Notes under the pieces: generated by a model
What the model was told of the DNA's origin: nothing
Databases searched by the model: none
The model's input: only the letters and a program-made list of their open reading frames with translations
Assembly (NCBI GenBank): GCA_027024025.1
Contig: JALVTT010000079.1
Location: 1-36,090, forward strand
Source of the DNA: Sedimenticola sp.
Lineage (GTDB): Bacteria > Pseudomonadota > Gammaproteobacteria > Chromatiales > Chromatiaceae
DNA length: 36,090 nucleotides
Direction: 5' to 3'
Shown here: positions 1 through 7,868 of the stretch, one piece after another
Numbering within the stretch: position 1 is the stretch's first letter
How the letters are laid out: the number at the start of each line of letters is the position of its first letter
Translations under genes and position numbers: made by a program

Positions 1-177
1 GCCCCGCCCACCCTGGACGAGGCCCGTCTGGCCTTCGAACGCCGCTATCTCACCGGCATCCTGCGCGCCACCAACGGCAACGTCACCAACGCCGCGCGCC
101 TGGCCGGGCGCAACCGCACCGAGTTCTACAAGCTGCTGCACCGCCACGAGCTGGACCCGGCCGCCTTCCGCCCCTGA
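1..177 (+). CDS. glrR: C-terminal fragment of a sigma54-dependent response regulator, GlrR/QseF-like (Fis-type HTH)
   Basis: Frame 1 from the window edge reads APPTLDEARLAFERRYLTGILRATNGNVTNAARLAGRNRTEFYKLLHRHELDPAAFRP*, which closely matches the recalled E. coli GlrR C-terminus (GNVTHAARMAGRNRTEFYKLLSRHELDANDF). 5' truncated by the window. Confidence 0.8.
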   Translation, partial: APPTLDEARLAFERRYLTGILRATNGNVTNAARLAGRNRTEFYKLLHRHELDPAAFRP

Positions 178-263: not shown

Positions 264-668
264 ATGCTTAACACCCTAGAGATTAACGCAATGTGCAAGG
301 GATCTGTTCTGCTGGTGGAGGACTCGGACATCCAACGCCGCCTGATCCAACGCCTCCTCTTGGCCTGTGACCGGCCGGTGGAGACGGTGGACAACGGCGA
401 GGATGCGGTCCGGTACGCCCTGGAGACGGACCCGGACCTCATCCTTATGGACATCGACATGCCCGGCATGAACGGCCTCGACGCCTGCCGGGCCATCTCT
501 CGCAATCCTCACACCCAGCACATCCCGATTGTCATGCTGTCCTCCTATGAGGATAAAGCCTACCGCCTGCGTGCCGCCATGCGCGGCGCCGTTGATTACC
601 TGGTTAAGCCGGTGACTCGCGAGCAACTCTGCAATACACTGGCGCCGATACTGAACAACGAAGACTGA
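264..668 (+). CDS. Stand-alone CheY-like receiver domain protein
   Basis: VEDSD, LILMDIDMPGMNG, VMLSS and VKP motifs are all present. The start could also be the ATG at 291 (MCKGSV). Confidence 0.9.
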   Translation: MLNTLEINAMCKGSVLLVEDSDIQRRLIQRLLLACDRPVETVDNGEDAVRYALETDPDLILMDIDMPGMNGLDACRAISRNPHTQHIPIVMLSSYEDKAYRLRAAMRGAVDYLVKPVTREQLCNTLAPILNNED

Positions 669-788
669 AACAGGCCCGCCACCACCGGCGGACCCGTTGC
701 CTTGCCCGCGCCGGCGCCCGGCGGATGCCCAATTCACCAAGGCGTTTGGCTGTGGGAAGGGCAACACCCTCGTGAGGAGCTCAGATAA

Positions 789-1199
789 ATGGCCAAGAAA
801 CCCAATACCCAAGCCCCCGCGGCCGACAGCATGCAACAGGTCCGCGAGCTGCTTTTCGGCGAATACCAGCGCCGGGTGGACGCCCAGCTTGCCGAGACCG
901 GCAAGGCCCTGGCCCAGCTTGGAGAAGACACCCGCAAGGCCCATGCCCAGCTCGACCAGGCCACGCGCAGCGCCCAGCAGGAGATGGAGGCCGCGCTGCG
1001 CGATGAGCTGAACCGCACCCGCCAGGCCCTGGAGCAGCGCATCGAGGACCTGCAGACCAGCCTGGAGCGCGCACTCAAGGAACTGGAGCGCGACACCCAC
1101 AAGCAGCTCGACCGACTGGACGCGGCCAAGGTTGACCGCGGCGTGCTGGCCGCTCTGATGCGCCAGCTGGCCGACCAGCTGGAAGGCCAGGACGGCTGA
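789..1199 (+). CDS. Small coiled-coil protein of unknown function
   Basis: 136 aa, heptad-like Ala/Leu/Gln/Glu-rich; GAGGAG upstream of the ATG; N-terminal VRELLFGEYQRRV motif resembles the N-terminus of the next protein. Confidence 0.75.
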   Translation: MAKKPNTQAPAADSMQQVRELLFGEYQRRVDAQLAETGKALAQLGEDTRKAHAQLDQATRSAQQEMEAALRDELNRTRQALEQRIEDLQTSLERALKELERDTHKQLDRLDAAKVDRGVLAALMRQLADQLEGQDG

Positions 1200-1209
1200 G
1201 CCGCCGCTC

Positions 1210-3120
1210 ATGAACACCCCCGCCGGTTCCGACGATGCGCTGGGCACGCTCAAGCAGCTGCTGCTGGGCGAGGAACAGCAGCAGATCGAGGCCATCAGCG
1301 AACGCCTCGCCGACCCCTCGCTGCGCAGCGAGGACGTGGCCGAGGTGCTGCCGGACGCGGTGCGCCTGCGCGACGCGCGCGACGACGAGCTGACCGACGC
1401 CCTCGAGCCCCCGGTGACCCAGTGCATCGAGCGCTCCATCCGTCGCGACCCGGACAACTTCGCCAACGCCCTGTACCCGGTCATGGGCCCGGCCATCCGC
1501 CAGTCCATCACCAGCACCCTGCGCGGGCTGGTGGAGAACATCAACCGCACCCTGGAACACAGCCTGTCCATCCAGGGCCTGAAGTGGCGCATCGAGGCCC
1601 TGCGCACGGGCGTGCCCTTCGCCGAGATCGTGCTGCGCCACACCCTGGCCTACCGCGTGGAACAGGTGTTCCTGATCCAGCCCGGCAGCGGCCTGCTGAT
1701 GCAGCACGTGCAGGACGAGCTGGCCGGCCAGGCCGACGCCGACGCCATCTCCGGCATGCTCACCGCCATCACCCAGTTTGTGCGCGACGCCTTTCAGGCC
1801 GACGAAAAGGATGGCCTGGACACGGTCGAGATGGGCGAGCACACCGTGCTCCTGGTACATGGTCCCCAGGCCTATCTGGCGGCGGTGGTGCGCGGCATCG
1901 TGCCCAGCGAGCTGCGCGAGCACTGCCAAGAGGTGCTGGAGAACCTGCACGCCCGCTACCGCAGCCAGCTCGAACAGTTCGACGGCCGCACCGAGACCCT
2001 GGCCCCGGCCGCTCCGCTGCTGGGCCGCTGCCTGCGCTCCCAGCACAAGAGCGTGGAGAAGAAACGCGGCCTCTCGCCGGCCTTCATCCTGATTCTTCTG
2101 GGCCTGGCCATGCTGGCGGCCTGGTGGGGCTACCGCCTGTGGCAGGCACACCGCGCGCAACAGGACTGGCAGGCGCGCGAACACCGCCTGGTCGCGCTGC
2201 TGGACGCGCAGCCCGGCCTCACTCTCACCGACGTGATCTACGGCCGCCAGCGCCTCCGGCTGCGCGGCCTGCGCGACCCCCAGGCCGCCCCGGTCGAGCC
2301 GCTGCTGAAGCAGGCCGGCATCGAGCCCGGGCGGGTGGACATGCAGTGGCGGCCCTATCTCGACCTGGACCCGCGGCTGGTGGAGCAGCGCGCGCGCAAG
2401 ACCCTGGCCCCGCCGGAGGGGGTGAGCCTGAGCCTGCGCCAGGGCATCCTGCGCCTGTCCGGGCACGCCCCCGCGGACTGGCTGCGGCGCGCGCGCCTGC
2501 AGGCCCCGCTGATCCCCGGGGTGCAGGGTCTGGACGAGCAGGGCCTGCAGAGCCTGGACGACTATCTGCTGGAGCAGGCCCGGACCCGTCTGGCCCCGCC
2601 ACAGGGGGTGGAGATGCGGGTCGAGCAGCAGCGCCTGGCGGTCCGCGGCAGCGCCCCGCTGGCCTGGATCGAGGGTCTGGACCAGGCGGCCGCCGCCATC
2701 CCCGGGCTGCAGGGCGTCGACCGCCAGGGTCTGGTGCCGACCGAATCGCTGGAGTTTGAACAACTCCGCATTCGGATTGAGAACACGAACATATACTTCA
2801 CCGAACGCAGCGAGCTGGACCAGAACCAACAGCAACAGCTGGCGCGGCTGGGTCAAACGCTTAAGCAGCTTTACCATCTTGGCCAACGGCTGCACACCCC
2901 TTTCCATGTGCTTCTGATCGGGCACACGGACGGCGTCGGCCTGCCGGAACTGAATAGCCAGATCGGCCTGACCCGCGCCCTGCTGGTGCGCGACACGCTG
3001 GTCTCCCAGGGCCTGCCCGCGGAACTGTTCCGCTGGCAGGCCGAAATCGGCCAAACGCCTATCCAGGATGTCAGTGCGCGCCGAACCGAATTTCGTATTA
3101 TCTTGGATCAAGGACAATAG
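1210..3120 (+). CDS. OmpA-family protein with a large N-terminal cytoplasmic region, one TM helix, BON-like repeats and a C-terminal OmpA/MotB-type domain
   Basis: One hydrophobic segment (SPAFILILLGLAMLAAWWGY), two clear ~65 aa repeats (APPEGVSLSL...GVQGLDEQGL and APPQGVEMRV...GLQGVDRQGL), and a C-terminal LIGHTDGVG...LNSQIGLTRALLVRDTL...RRTEFRIIL region. Confidence 0.82.
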   Translation: MNTPAGSDDALGTLKQLLLGEEQQQIEAISERLADPSLRSEDVAEVLPDAVRLRDARDDELTDALEPPVTQCIERSIRRDPDNFANALYPVMGPAIRQSITSTLRGLVENINRTLEHSLSIQGLKWRIEALRTGVPFAEIVLRHTLAYRVEQVFLIQPGSGLLMQHVQDELAGQADADAISGMLTAITQFVRDAFQADEKDGLDTVEMGEHTVLLVHGPQAYLAAVVRGIVPSELREHCQEVLENLHARYRSQLEQFDGRTETLAPAAPLLGRCLRSQHKSVEKKRGLSPAFILILLGLAMLAAWWGYRLWQAHRAQQDWQAREHRLVALLDAQPGLTLTDVIYGRQRLRLRGLRDPQAAPVEPLLKQAGIEPGRVDMQWRPYLDLDPRLVEQRARKTLAPPEGVSLSLRQGILRLSGHAPADWLRRARLQAPLIPGVQGLDEQGLQSLDDYLLEQARTRLAPPQGVEMRVEQQRLAVRGSAPLAWIEGLDQAAAAIPGLQGVDRQGLVPTESLEFEQLRIRIENTNIYFTERSELDQNQQQQLARLGQTLKQLYHLGQRLHTPFHVLLIGHTDGVGLPELNSQIGLTRALLVRDTLVSQGLPAELFRWQAEIGQTPIQDVSARRTEFRIILDQGQ

Positions 3121-3121
3121 C

Positions 3122-3625
3122 ATGCTGACACGCAAGATCTGCATGATCGGTGATTTCGCGGTCGGCAAGACCAGCCTGGTGTCACGCTATGTGCGCCATA
3201 CCTTTTCCGAGGCCTATCAGACCACCATCGGCGTCAAGATCGACAGCAAGATCATCCGACTGCCCTCGGGCGACGACCTCAAGCTGGTGCTATGGGACAT
3301 CGCCGGCAGCAACGCGCTCTCCACCGTCGAACAGTCCTACCTCAAGGGCGCCAGCGGCTACCTGCTGGTAAGCGACGCGACCCGCTGCGAGACCCTGGAC
3401 CACGCCATCGACCTGCACCGCCAGGCCGAGCGCCAGATCGGGCACGTACCCTTTGTGCTGGTACTGAACAAGGACGATCTGCACGAGCAGTACGAACTTT
3501 CCACCGACACCCTGAAACAGCTGCGCTCCAGCGGTTGGCACAGCGTGCGCAGCAGCGCCCTGACCGGGCTCGGGGTGGAGGAGGCCTTTCAGAGACTGGG
3601 CGAACAACTGGCGATCAAGGCATGA
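3122..3625 (+). CDS. Rab/Ras-like small GTPase
   Basis: G1 GDFAVGKTS, switch I TTIGVKID, G3 WDIAG, G4 NKDD, G5 SAL. ATG at 3122 lies 1 nt after the OmpA-like stop codon. Confidence 0.92.
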   Translation: MLTRKICMIGDFAVGKTSLVSRYVRHTFSEAYQTTIGVKIDSKIIRLPSGDDLKLVLWDIAGSNALSTVEQSYLKGASGYLLVSDATRCETLDHAIDLHRQAERQIGHVPFVLVLNKDDLHEQYELSTDTLKQLRSSGWHSVRSSALTGLGVEEAFQRLGEQLAIKA

Positions 3626-5139
3626 GCGCAGAGGAACAGAACGCATCCCCCATCGAACGGCTGACCGCCTATCTACGGGAAGTCGATAACCAGCAACAGT
3701 TGCCTTTCTATCTGCTGGTCAACGACGCCCTGGAGCTGGCCGACGCCCAGGGCCAGGCGGCACATTACGGCTTTCATGACTTGCACCGCGGCAAGGATCT
3801 GTCCGACCGCCTGCTGTTCCTGGTCGGCATGGAGGACGCCCCGCTCGGTCAGATCACCACCCTGCCCATCCTCGACCTGGGCGATGAGATGTTCGCCCAC
3901 GTCTATATCCTGCGCCTGAAAAACGGCTGGGGCATGGCCTTCACCGACGCCCGGCGCGAACACGCCGAGCGCCTGCGCTACCAGCAACTGGCCAACGAGC
4001 TGGCCCTCTCACAGCGCGAACTGGCGCGCAAGCACACCGAGCTGGAGCGCGCCATGCAGGCAAAGAGCCTGTTCATCGGACGCATGTCGCACGAGTTCCG
4101 CACCCCGCTGTCCTCCATCCTCGGCTTCGCCACCCTGGCAGAGGAGGACATGGGCGACGCCGGACGCCTGCACGCCGACCTGCAGGCGATCAAGCGCGGC
4201 GCCAACTACCTGCTCTCGCTAGTGGACAACCTGCTCGACCAGAGCGTGCTGGAGCACGACCGGCTGCACATCCGCCCGGTGGCCTGCGACATCGCCCGCC
4301 TGGTCAACGAACTGGAGGAGCTGTTCCAGCCCACCGCGCGCCAGAAAGGCCTGTCCCTGGCCTGGTGGCTAGGTGGCAACATGCCCAAGCGCCTGTGGCT
4401 GGACGAGCTGCGCCTGCGCCAGGTGCTGGTCAACCTGATCGGCAACGCCATCAAGTTCACCCGCGAGGGGGCGATCAGCGTGTCCCTGGAATGGGCCAGG
4501 GACCGCCTGGAAGTATCTGTGGAAGACACTGGCTCGGGCATCCCCCCGCAGGATCTCAAGCGCCTGTTCCAGCCCTTCAGCCAGGGCCCCGCGACTGATC
4601 GCGGCCAGCAGGGGGCCGGCCTGGGCCTGGGCATCAGCCGCTCCATCGTGCAGGGCATGGGGGGCGAGCTGACCCTGGAGTCCCAGCCCGGCAAGGGCAC
4701 CCGGGCCAGCTTCCATGTCGAGGCGCCGGCGCGCGACCGCAAGAGCGACGAGGAACGCACCCTGGTGCAGCGCCGGGTGCTGCTGCTGGAGGACGACCCG
4801 GACACCCGCGAGCTGTTGACGATCTTCATCACGGGCGCCGGGGCCCGCCTGAGCGTGGCGCGCGACGCGGACGAGTGCGAGGCCCTGGTGAGTCAGAACC
4901 CGGAGCTGATCGTGGTCAATCTGCTGCCGGAGCCCCACCACCGCCTGCTCTTGCGGCACCTGCAACAGGCCGGCTTCCGCGGCCCTGTGGTGGCGGTCAG
5001 CGCCCAGGACGACGAGGATCTGCACCGCAAGATCCGGCGCGCCGGCTATGCCGGGCTGATCACCAAGCCCATCCGGCGCGGCGAGCTGGTCAGCGAGTTG
5101 GCGACCCTGCTGGAGGAGAGCGAGGGCGAAAACGCCTGA
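3622..5139 (+). CDS. Soluble hybrid histidine kinase with a degenerate C-terminal receiver
   Basis: ATGA overlap with the GTPase stop. HisKA HEFRTPLSSILGF, HATPase N-box NLIGNAIKFT, DTGSGIPP, GAGLGLGIS, then a REC domain with LLLEDDPD, LIVVNLLPEP and ITKP. No TM helix visible. Confidence 0.92.
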   Translation: MSAEEQNASPIERLTAYLREVDNQQQLPFYLLVNDALELADAQGQAAHYGFHDLHRGKDLSDRLLFLVGMEDAPLGQITTLPILDLGDEMFAHVYILRLKNGWGMAFTDARREHAERLRYQQLANELALSQRELARKHTELERAMQAKSLFIGRMSHEFRTPLSSILGFATLAEEDMGDAGRLHADLQAIKRGANYLLSLVDNLLDQSVLEHDRLHIRPVACDIARLVNELEELFQPTARQKGLSLAWWLGGNMPKRLWLDELRLRQVLVNLIGNAIKFTREGAISVSLEWARDRLEVSVEDTGSGIPPQDLKRLFQPFSQGPATDRGQQGAGLGLGISRSIVQGMGGELTLESQPGKGTRASFHVEAPARDRKSDEERTLVQRRVLLLEDDPDTRELLTIFITGAGARLSVARDADECEALVSQNPELIVVNLLPEPHHRLLLRHLQQAGFRGPVVAVSAQDDEDLHRKIRRAGYAGLITKPIRRGELVSELATLLEESEGENA

Positions 5140-5153
5140 GCCCGGCGAAGCGG

Positions 5154-7868
5154 CTACAGCCGGATCTCCACCCGCGGCCGGCCGTCGGCCGTATCGTCGA
5201 TGCGCGGCCGGCAGGCGCGCAACTGGCCACTGGCCACCCCCGTCTCCAGCAGCACCCGGCGCACCCAGGCGGCGCGTTGTTCCGCCAGCTTCAGCATGGC
5301 CGCGGCGTCATCTTTCTTGTCTCCGCCGCGATCGGAGGCCACCGCCACCCCGCACAGGCGCAGACGCAGCTTCGGCCGGTCGGCCAGCTTCTTGCCCAGG
5401 GCGCGCAGCCGGGCCTCCATCCCGGCGCGCGGCCGGCTGGCGCCGGCCTGGAAGCCCACCGGCTGGAAGCGCACCTGCAGCGCCGCGTCGGCCAGCAGGC
5501 CACCGACCAGGATCACGCTGCCCAGGGGCTGGATGGCCAGCGCGGCGGTCCCGGCCACGGCCTTCATGATGATGGGATCGAGCGCGCCCAGGACGTGAAA
5601 ATCCGGACGTGACAGATCGCCGTCGATCGGCACGTCCAGCGTGATGCGGCCCTGGCGGTCCTCCAGCAGGGCCGCCGCCAGGGACAGCGGCGGGCCCTTG
5701 CGCCCGGGGATGGGATCGACCTCCAAGTCGTTCAGCTCCAGGTGGTTGCGCATGTGCAGGCGGTGACGCGCGATCCTGAGCTTGAAGCGGTCGCTCAGCT
5801 CGCCCTCGACGAAGCGGTGCCCCAGCTGATCGGCCACCAGGCCGTTGACCAGGGGCAGATGCAGCCCGCTCAGCGTCCCGTGGCCCTCGATGGCCGGCGG
5901 CCGGGCGAAGGGCCGCAGACGCGCCTGCAGGCCCAGGTGGGAATAGCGGTCCAGCACCAGGTTGAGATCCAGCGGGGTGTCCTGCCCGGGCCGCCCGCTG
6001 TCCAGGGCCCCCAGCTCGAGGCGGGCGATGTGCAACTCGCGGTCCAGCGGCGGCTGGATGTGCCGGTCGACCAGGTGCACCCGGTTGTCGCCGGCCAGGC
6101 GCAGCCCGGCCAGGCGCCAGCGCGGACGGGCCGGGTCCGCTGCGCCGGCCCCGGCGCCGGAGGTTGCCGGCGCGCTCAGCCGCGGTCGCTGCCAGTGACC
6201 GTCCGCGTCCCGACTCAGGCCGAGACGCAGATCGTGCAGGGTCAGGCGGCCCAGCGCCCAGTCCGAGGCCGACAGGGTGGAGGCGGCGAGCTCGGCGCGC
6301 GCCAGGCGCAGGGGGTAGCGGCGCAGGGCCAGGCCGTCCAGGGCCGCCTCCCGCAGGCGCAGGCGCGCGCCGTCCCAGTCCAGCCCCTCCAGGGACAGCC
6401 CGGCCAGGGACAGCTGTTCGCCCTCCGCGCCCTGCGGCTGGAAGCGCAGGCCGGTGAGCTGCGCACCGCCCCGCGCGGTCGCCCGCGCCGGGTCGAGTTC
6501 GCCCGCATCCAGCCGCGCCAAGCCCGCCTCCAGGGTCAGGGCGCGCGGTGGATCATCCAGCGCGAGGCCCTGCACATCCAGCCTCAGGCCGGCCTGGGTC
6601 CAGCGGCCGCCCTGGTAACGCCATGCGCCCTGGATGGCGGCGCGGCCCAGACTCAGGGCGCGTCCGGCCTGATGCGCCCTCACGCCGGTCAGGGACAGAT
6701 CGCCGCCACTGAGCGCCGGCCTGGCGTCCGCTTCGCGGGGCAGGGACAGCGCCGGGGCCTCCAGCCTCAGCCGATCCAGAGCCAGATCGCCGGCCTCCCC
6801 GCTCAGGGCCAGGCCCCGCGCCTGCAGCGCCTCGCCCTGTACCCGCCAGGCCGCCCGGTCCGGATGGAGATCCAGGGCCCGCAGCGCGGCGCTGTCCAGA
6901 TCGATGCGGTAGGCGCCGTCTTGCAGATGCAGGCCGCTCAGGCTCAGGCTTTGGGCGCTCAGGCGCGGCCGGCCCGGGTCGCCGGGATCCAGACTCAGCC
7001 GGAGCCTTTCCAGGCCGAGGGTGTCGATGCGCAGCCGCCCGCAGGCGGCCGCGTCATCACAGGCCGCCTGCGGTGACGTGCGAGCCAGGCGGTAGGCCAG
7101 CTCACCGACCGCGGCCCGGCCGGCGAGGCGCAGCGCGCCGGGCGAGGCCCGCAGGTCGAGCCGGGCATCCAGCCGCCCGCCCAGCGGCAGCGGCCGGCGG
7201 GCCAGGCGCAGGACGCGCCTCAGGGGCAGTTGGCGCAGGTCCAGGCGGCCCCGCAGCCGGGGCCGGGGCGCCAGGCGCAGGCCGCCGTCGAATCCCAGCC
7301 GCGCCGCGCCCCAGCGGGCCCGCAGATGCAGGGAAGCCGGGGTGGATGCGGCCGGGTCGAGATCCTCCAGGCTGAGCGATCGCAGACGGATCACCTGCGC
7401 CGGCAGGCCGGTGGCCGGATCCTCGTAGATCAGACGGAAGCGCGCCAGGCGGGCCGCGTCCACCCGTGGCGGCGGCACGGATGCCTGTCCCTGTCCGGCC
7501 GGGGCCGCCGGCAGGCCGGTGTCCAGCCCGCCATCGGGGCGACGGCGCACACGCCAGTAGCCGCGCGCCAGGTCCAGCCGCCGCACCCGCAGCCGGCCGC
7601 GCAGCAGGGCGCCCGTGTCCAGCTCCAGGCGGGCCTCCTCCAGGCGCAGCCAGGGCCGTTGCGGCGGGCCCAGGACCAGGCCGTCGATGGCCAGCAGGCC
7701 GCTGAACAGGTTGAGATCGACCTCGCCCAGATAGCTGAGCTGGCCCGCTCCCAGGGCCCGCTGCAGCTGGGTGCGCATCAGCCAGGGCGCCGCCAGGTGC
7801 AGCCCGACCAGCAGCAGCGCCAGGCCCGTCAGGAATACGAGGCCGAGCGATACCAGGGAGCGACGCAT
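5154..7868 (-). CDS. DUF748/AsmA-like envelope protein
   Basis: 904 aa, N-terminal TM, C-terminal GRITLDVPIDGDLSRPDFHVLGALDPIIMKAVAGTAALAIQPLGSV typical of DUF748 proteins. Confidence 0.82.
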   Translation of the reverse strand: MRRSLVSLGLVFLTGLALLLVGLHLAAPWLMRTQLQRALGAGQLSYLGEVDLNLFSGLLAIDGLVLGPPQRPWLRLEEARLELDTGALLRGRLRVRRLDLARGYWRVRRRPDGGLDTGLPAAPAGQGQASVPPPRVDAARLARFRLIYEDPATGLPAQVIRLRSLSLEDLDPAASTPASLHLRARWGAARLGFDGGLRLAPRPRLRGRLDLRQLPLRRVLRLARRPLPLGGRLDARLDLRASPGALRLAGRAAVGELAYRLARTSPQAACDDAAACGRLRIDTLGLERLRLSLDPGDPGRPRLSAQSLSLSGLHLQDGAYRIDLDSAALRALDLHPDRAAWRVQGEALQARGLALSGEAGDLALDRLRLEAPALSLPREADARPALSGGDLSLTGVRAHQAGRALSLGRAAIQGAWRYQGGRWTQAGLRLDVQGLALDDPPRALTLEAGLARLDAGELDPARATARGGAQLTGLRFQPQGAEGEQLSLAGLSLEGLDWDGARLRLREAALDGLALRRYPLRLARAELAASTLSASDWALGRLTLHDLRLGLSRDADGHWQRPRLSAPATSGAGAGAADPARPRWRLAGLRLAGDNRVHLVDRHIQPPLDRELHIARLELGALDSGRPGQDTPLDLNLVLDRYSHLGLQARLRPFARPPAIEGHGTLSGLHLPLVNGLVADQLGHRFVEGELSDRFKLRIARHRLHMRNHLELNDLEVDPIPGRKGPPLSLAAALLEDRQGRITLDVPIDGDLSRPDFHVLGALDPIIMKAVAGTAALAIQPLGSVILVGGLLADAALQVRFQPVGFQAGASRPRAGMEARLRALGKKLADRPKLRLRLCGVAVASDRGGDKKDDAAAMLKLAEQRAAWVRRVLLETGVASGQLRACRPRIDDTADGRPRVEIRL

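Follow-up and report, generated by a model that had tools for sequence, protein, structure and literature searches.

Which protein regulates a Rab-like GTPase in a bacterium, and on what does the GTPase act? The question is raised by a group of genes at the start of a Sedimenticola sp. contig (JALVTT010000079.1, assembly GCA_027024025.1), of which we analyzed positions 1 to 36,090 of the forward strand (36,090 nucleotides, hereafter the window, to which coordinates refer unless another locus is named). The cassette is real, well conserved and in outline already described; the valuable part of the analysis is the fold assignment of its central domain. We think it probable that in this kind of system, known as Group 1 Rup, a platform in the inner membrane controls a Rab-like GTPase switch, which acts on an output kinase.

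Gene content of the cassette

Five co-directional genes, all on the forward strand, encode a stand-alone receiver (264–668; 134 aa, Pfam Response_reg, 8e-29), a cytoplasmic coiled-coil protein (789–1199; 136 aa, matching no specific Pfam family), an OmpA-type membrane protein (1210–3120; 636 aa), a Rab-like GTPase (3122–3625; 167 aa, Pfam Ras, 2e-30) and a soluble histidine kinase (3622–5139; 505 aa). The coordinates and tight junctions given in the preliminary description were reproduced: 10 nt between the coiled-coil and OmpA-type genes, 1 nt between the OmpA-type and GTPase genes, and an ATGA overlap between the GTPase and kinase genes. The gap between the receiver and coiled-coil genes (120 nt) is looser than the other junctions. 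All five genes are thus present as described, but there is also a sixth conserved neighbor: positions 1–177 (+) encode the C-terminal end, with a Fis-type HTH (HTH_8, 1.5e-4 on 1–174), of a sigma-54 (NtrC-type) response regulator, whose gene is cut by the left edge of the window and contig.

Matches to a sigma-54 promoter pattern upstream of the cassette did not exceed the chance level (none lies in the gap 178–263), and in the cassette region we found no sigma-70-like promoter and no terminator-like sites above chance. Rfam has no match for the cassette DNA. Two other origins or roles were considered and rejected: a link to defence systems (no PADLOC match of note, the matches of the coiled-coil protein being compositional) and a viral origin (no relative of the cassette among viral contigs).

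Assignment to Group 1 Rup

The preliminary description knew of no pathway with this parts list. That statement was wrong, because a matching composition, that of Group 1 Rup, was published in 2014 from genome analysis (Wuichet and Sogaard-Andersen, PMC4316618); the preliminary description had itself named such a publication as grounds for refutation. The first of the four published parts is a Ras-like GTPase that lacks the catalytic Gln and is reported to resemble eukaryotic Rab/Ran/Ras/Rho very closely. The others are a coiled-coil protein of the cytoplasm, a protein whose conserved domain is often followed by a TM helix and OmpA, and an output enzyme with an invariant Gln in its N-terminus. 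The authors also propose that the Gln of the output protein may stand in for the one absent from the GTPase, and state that no Rup member had been experimentally characterised as of 2014.

All of these features are present here: Ras-type G1–G5 motifs (including G1 GDFAVGKT, G3 WDIAGS, G4 NKDD, and SAL), a G3 motif in which S63 replaces the catalytic Gln, a coiled coil, an OmpA-type protein and a Gln-bearing output protein. Judged from these component features rather than from a position in a tree, the cassette is a Group 1 Rup system, and it shares with the 2014 description the four components, the Gln-less G3, the invariant output Gln and the common neighborhood. It has two extra genes, for a stand-alone receiver and a sigma-54 regulator, and the receiver of its kinase is degenerate. 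The folds predicted below for the conserved domain and for the N-terminus of the output enzyme are additions made here. In the open-access journal literature searched we found no later experimental study of a Rup and no longin domain in a Rup. Nor did that literature yield the longin/roadblock prediction, the PAS fold with a Gln on its exit helix, the lost phospho-Asp of the kinase receiver or the sigma-54 regulator ahead of the cassette in the genus, all presented below.

The nearest solved structures to the GTPase are a Thorarchaeota Rab (4e-22) and Rab2. The G3 motif lacks Gln in 79 out of 81 family GTPases among the matches listed; the only two seen with it in these matches (WDxYGQ) are from Desulfobacterota (L059 and L101). 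A Blastocatellia locus (L041:8001-9133) carries a tandem pair of Rup GTPase genes.

Distribution and conserved gene order

Scanning a single genome from each species with the GTPase alignment yielded at least 80 loci; those listed come from Gamma-, Beta- and Alphaproteobacteria, Desulfobacterota, Acidobacteriota, Nitrospirota, Chloroflexi, Deinococcota, Myxococcota, Bacteroidota, Spirochaetes and others. The locus counts that follow refer to the matches listed. A profile of the OmpA-type N-terminus matches 67 of the 87 loci examined, a set in which a few genomes are counted twice. Upstream DNA of 2.5 kb or more is available for 69 loci; in 52 of them the OmpA-type gene lies directly 5' of the GTPase gene, and in 45 of those 52 a coiled-coil gene, recognised by its motif, lies directly 5' of the OmpA-type gene; the other 17 loci, mostly from Thiotrichales and Desulfobacterota, have no adjacent OmpA-type gene. 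With the same gene order in many phyla, the arrangement is far beyond chance. (One locus, L077, is in a record titled as a Klebsiella pneumoniae MAG, probably a mislabelled bin.)

The two genes also co-occur at the genome level. The OmpA-type domain is found in 30 and a GTPase match in 34 out of 369 genomes of the class, with both in 29, so that one genome has the OmpA-type domain only and five have a GTPase match only (four of these five have only weak matches, E 1e-17 to 1e-24). Within the genus, the GTPase and OmpA-type genes occur in the same four out of eight genomes. The neighborhood analysis suggested by the preliminary description finds the coiled-coil, OmpA-type and GTPase genes together elsewhere, and a single functional module is supported.

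The OmpA-type protein and its periplasmic end

A ∼290-aa N-terminal part, a single TM helix and an OmpA domain had been noted in this protein, and this layout is borne out: a predicted longin/roadblock-like domain is followed by one TM segment (about residues 287–310, window 2068–2139, +; Kyte-Doolittle 2.08 at residue 287), a periplasmic part and an OmpA peptidoglycan-binding-like domain (2806–3066, +). None of the other four proteins has a TM segment, in agreement with the earlier view of the kinase as soluble. There are more lysines and arginines before the TM segment (six) than after it (three), therefore the first 285 residues should be cytoplasmic. The Pfam match of the OmpA domain (1e-5) is slightly below threshold, with 26.2 bits versus a cut-off of 27.2; this part of the protein is also recognised by YiaD-type NCBIfam models, at 1.6e-8, and D574 and R589, at the peptidoglycan-contact positions, are both present.

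Among the matches listed, a TM segment follows the conserved domain in 56 out of 60 OmpA-type proteins, the OmpA motif is found in 28 out of 60, and Chloroflexi copies end right after the TM segment; peptidoglycan binding is therefore not essential. Proteins without the OmpA end include two from Dehalococcoidia (L073 and L083), whose chains stop directly past the TM helix, and two from Meiothermus (L075 and L089). In three further genomes (G065, G209 and G315) the N-terminal stretch is duplicated inside one very long ORF (888–982 aa).

These counts bear on the scheme first put forward for the locus, in which the OmpA end senses or anchors at the cell wall and the signal passes through the GTPase to the kinase and on to the receiver. 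The topology and the presence of D574 and R589 fit the scheme, as do the gene set and the intact stand-alone receiver. Sensing as the core function is weakened by the optional OmpA end: the OmpA end is missing or unrecognisable in about half of the family, we saw the receiver in no locus outside the genus of the window, and there is no sign that the wall is the signal, so we consider this order of events unlikely.

The coiled-coil and OmpA-type proteins begin with similar motifs: MQQVRELLFGEY (831–866, +) in the former, whose family is recognised by its consensus [IVLM]R-x-[IL]LFG, and LGTLKQLLLGEE (1240–1275, +) in the latter, with the consensus LR-x-LLLG. The two motif profiles align by hhalign with a score of 19.4 (maximum 10.8 over 100 column shuffles), a value that helical periodicity may inflate. 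One reading of the resemblance is that both proteins carry a common docking site. A proposed homology between the conserved C-terminus of the coiled-coil protein and the OmpA-type N-terminus was rejected (hhalign 8.6, matched by 28 out of 100 shuffles).

A predicted longin/roadblock domain next to the GTPase

The N-terminus of the OmpA-type protein was modeled with AlphaFold2 from an alignment of 60 homologues (mean pLDDT 81.8, pTM 0.55); the low pTM indicates that the two halves of the model are poorly placed relative to each other. An ordered helical part comes first, and residues 146–272 are predicted to form a strand-strand-helix-strand-strand-strand-helix-helix arrangement. In a Foldseek search of the PDB, the best 50 matches are all longin/roadblock domains or chains containing them (top E 6e-5), among them TRAPP subunits, Ragulator, Mon1-Ccz1, adaptor sigma subunits, an Asgard roadblock protein and MglB. 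At the sequence level, hhalign places 70 columns of the domain in register with a proteobacterial roadblock profile (built from members found with PF03259), with a score of 24.4, against a maximum of 16.3 over 60 column shuffles and 11.5 for the reversed profile; HHalign's own probability for this alignment is low (9–12%). Pfam gave nothing significant on 60 OmpA-type N-termini (Robl_LC7 in one out of 60, at E 0.026), no Robl_LC7 match on the N-terminus in the window, and no PF03259 match anywhere in the genome. The cytoplasmic domain (residues 137–272; 1618–2025, +) is thus predicted, from the model and its structural matches, to have a longin/roadblock fold.

TRAPP, Mon1-Ccz1, Ragulator and MglB all handle small GTPases by way of the longin/roadblock fold. 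Rup GTPases thus appear to have an MglB-like partner, at the level of the predicted fold and fixed to the membrane, and the earlier suggestion that the cytoplasmic N-terminus engages the GTPase becomes likely. We infer binding and regulation of the GTPase by this domain from genomic linkage. A small GTPase with a roadblock/longin-fold partner would be a likeness to MglA/MglB, but MglB is a soluble Robl_LC7 homodimer, whereas here the domain is inside a membrane protein and its sequence similarity is marginal. Actinobacterial conservons (CvnA-D, with a Group 2 MglA) likewise combine a kinase, a small GTPase and a roadblock-type protein (by fold in our case); they have an MglA-type GTPase and a Robl_LC7 protein, in contrast to the Rab-like GTPase and the domain tethered to TM and OmpA here. 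The likeness to TRAPP, Mon1-Ccz1 and Ragulator, in which the fold is found beside Rab-like or Rag GTPases, is at the level of the predicted fold; compared with these eukaryotic platforms, the protein here is bacterial and a single chain with a TM helix and a peptidoglycan-binding end.

If the partner is indeed a longin/roadblock domain, a regulator of Group 1 Rup GTPases is identified, the question of the missing GAP/GEF becomes a two-protein biochemistry experiment, and there is a bacterial case for comparison when asking how longin domains came to regulate Rab proteins. A true Rab–longin pairing would give Rup GTPases an MglB-type partner thought to be absent, and would place that partnership in bacteria.

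Longin and roadblock domains can also merely dimerise. The domain could accordingly be only a dimerisation scaffold or a ligand sensor, with the coiled coil or the kinase regulating the GTPase; the longin fold is related to the PAS-like and profilin folds, all of them with many uses (PMC3521125), and the sequence support for the assignment is modest. This reading is more doubtful than wall sensing, as the co-occurrence of the domain with the GTPase is near-strict and the best 50 structural matches are all to GTPase-handling or closely related trafficking domains.

The kinase, its invariant Gln and the proposed path of the phosphate

The kinase (PAS, HisKA with H157, HATPase and pseudo-receiver) has Pfam matches to HisKA, HATPase_c and Response_reg, and no match to Pfam PAS. 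Its N-terminus is predicted to have a PAS fold (about residues 27–110; 3700–3951, +): the AlphaFold2 model has a mean pLDDT of 93.7, and PAS and phytochrome PAS-GAF structures lead its Foldseek matches in the PDB (E 6.6e-3). In the model, Q122 (codon 3985–3987, +) is on a long helix leaving the PAS domain toward HisKA. This column is Gln in 64 out of 65 downstream output proteins among the matches listed (the single exception is probably a wrong ORF), and is invariant in a second alignment (A5) too. The domains behind the Gln-bearing N-terminus vary: HisKA in 38 proteins, SpoIIE in 10, HD in six, cyclase in three and sigma-54 in one, among the matches listed.

The kinase was called a hybrid kinase in the preliminary description. 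A receiver domain is present, but its phospho-Asp position is occupied by Asn433 (codon 4918–4920, +), so the kinase is hybrid by domain only. Across four genus members this position is N/H/G/H, whereas the separate receivers have D (MDIDMP) and hybrid kinases from other families keep the receiver Asp. The stand-alone receiver in the window, aligned with its genus copies, retains D63 (codon 450–452, +) and K115, which makes it a plausible acceptor of the kinase output, as was proposed earlier. In the nearest relative its gene is interrupted, with the halves separated and in different frames (L022:6900-7494). The sigma-54 response regulator is found 5' of the receiver gene, and complete, in three out of three genus relatives (L022:5524-6864, L023:10473-11924 and L024:5561-6922; each with Response_reg, Sigma54_activat and HTH_8). 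Both proteins are candidate phosphate acceptors, and, with the internal receiver swapped for a stand-alone one in this genus, a tractable two-component readout of the GTPase becomes available.

The kinase is plausibly regulated by the GTPase. The reverse direction has been proposed for actinobacterial conservons, which join an MglA-type GTPase to a kinase and a roadblock protein; the analogy was drawn by the 2014 authors (PMC4316618). Here it would mean that the kinase senses by way of its PAS domain and lies upstream, and that the GTPase, placed on the membrane platform, is the output that passes the signal on; the kinase does have a predicted PAS domain of its own. We regard this direction as improbable: the slot of the kinase is filled elsewhere by SpoIIE phosphatase, HD, cyclase or sigma-54 activator proteins and looks like an interchangeable output, and a receiver and a sigma-54 regulator adjoin the genes here.

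Proposed mechanism

Our preferred reading, a GTPase switch run from a membrane platform, takes gene order, co-occurrence and conserved residues as observed and both folds as predicted; the interactions and the direction of signaling, all inferred, would be as follows. The OmpA-type protein would span the inner membrane, its N-terminus facing the cytoplasm, where the putative longin/roadblock domain would bind the GTPase and control its nucleotide state, by analogy with TRAPP, Mon1-Ccz1, Ragulator and MglB. Where a periplasmic OmpA end is present, it would tie the platform to peptidoglycan, and the coiled-coil protein would join the platform, perhaps via the common LR-x-LL-x-G motif. In one nucleotide state the GTPase would bind the kinase around the PAS domain and the Q122 helix, altering kinase activity; Q122 may also provide the missing catalytic Gln, along the lines of the 2014 proposal (PMC4316618), an idea against which count, among the matches listed, the two family GTPases with their own G3 Gln. 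Because the kinase's own receiver has no acceptor Asp, the phosphate would be taken up, in this genus, by the stand-alone receiver, by the sigma-54 regulator next to it, or by both. The broader proposition, which we advance tentatively, is that many bacterial phyla have a true Rab–longin pairing in one operon, coupled via a Gln-bearing PAS helix to interchangeable enzymes.

A chiefly spatial module, with the GTPase and output enzyme placed at a wall-defined site (pole or septum) and catalysis unchanged, would suit the predicted membrane and peptidoglycan anchoring and a roadblock-type domain as in MglB, but has little in its favor given that family members can do without the OmpA end and that the invariant Gln is on the helix joining sensor and catalytic parts, where activity is usually set.

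Genomic surroundings

The translations in the rest of the window were read by eye. A gene convergent with the kinase gene (5154–7868, –) encodes a 904-aa DUF748/AsmA-like protein with a C-terminal OmpA-like stretch. It is followed by a conserved origin-proximal block (7872–35074) that includes glmS, glmU, ATP synthase genes, parB/parA, rsmG, mnmG, mnmE, yidC, rnpA and dnaA.
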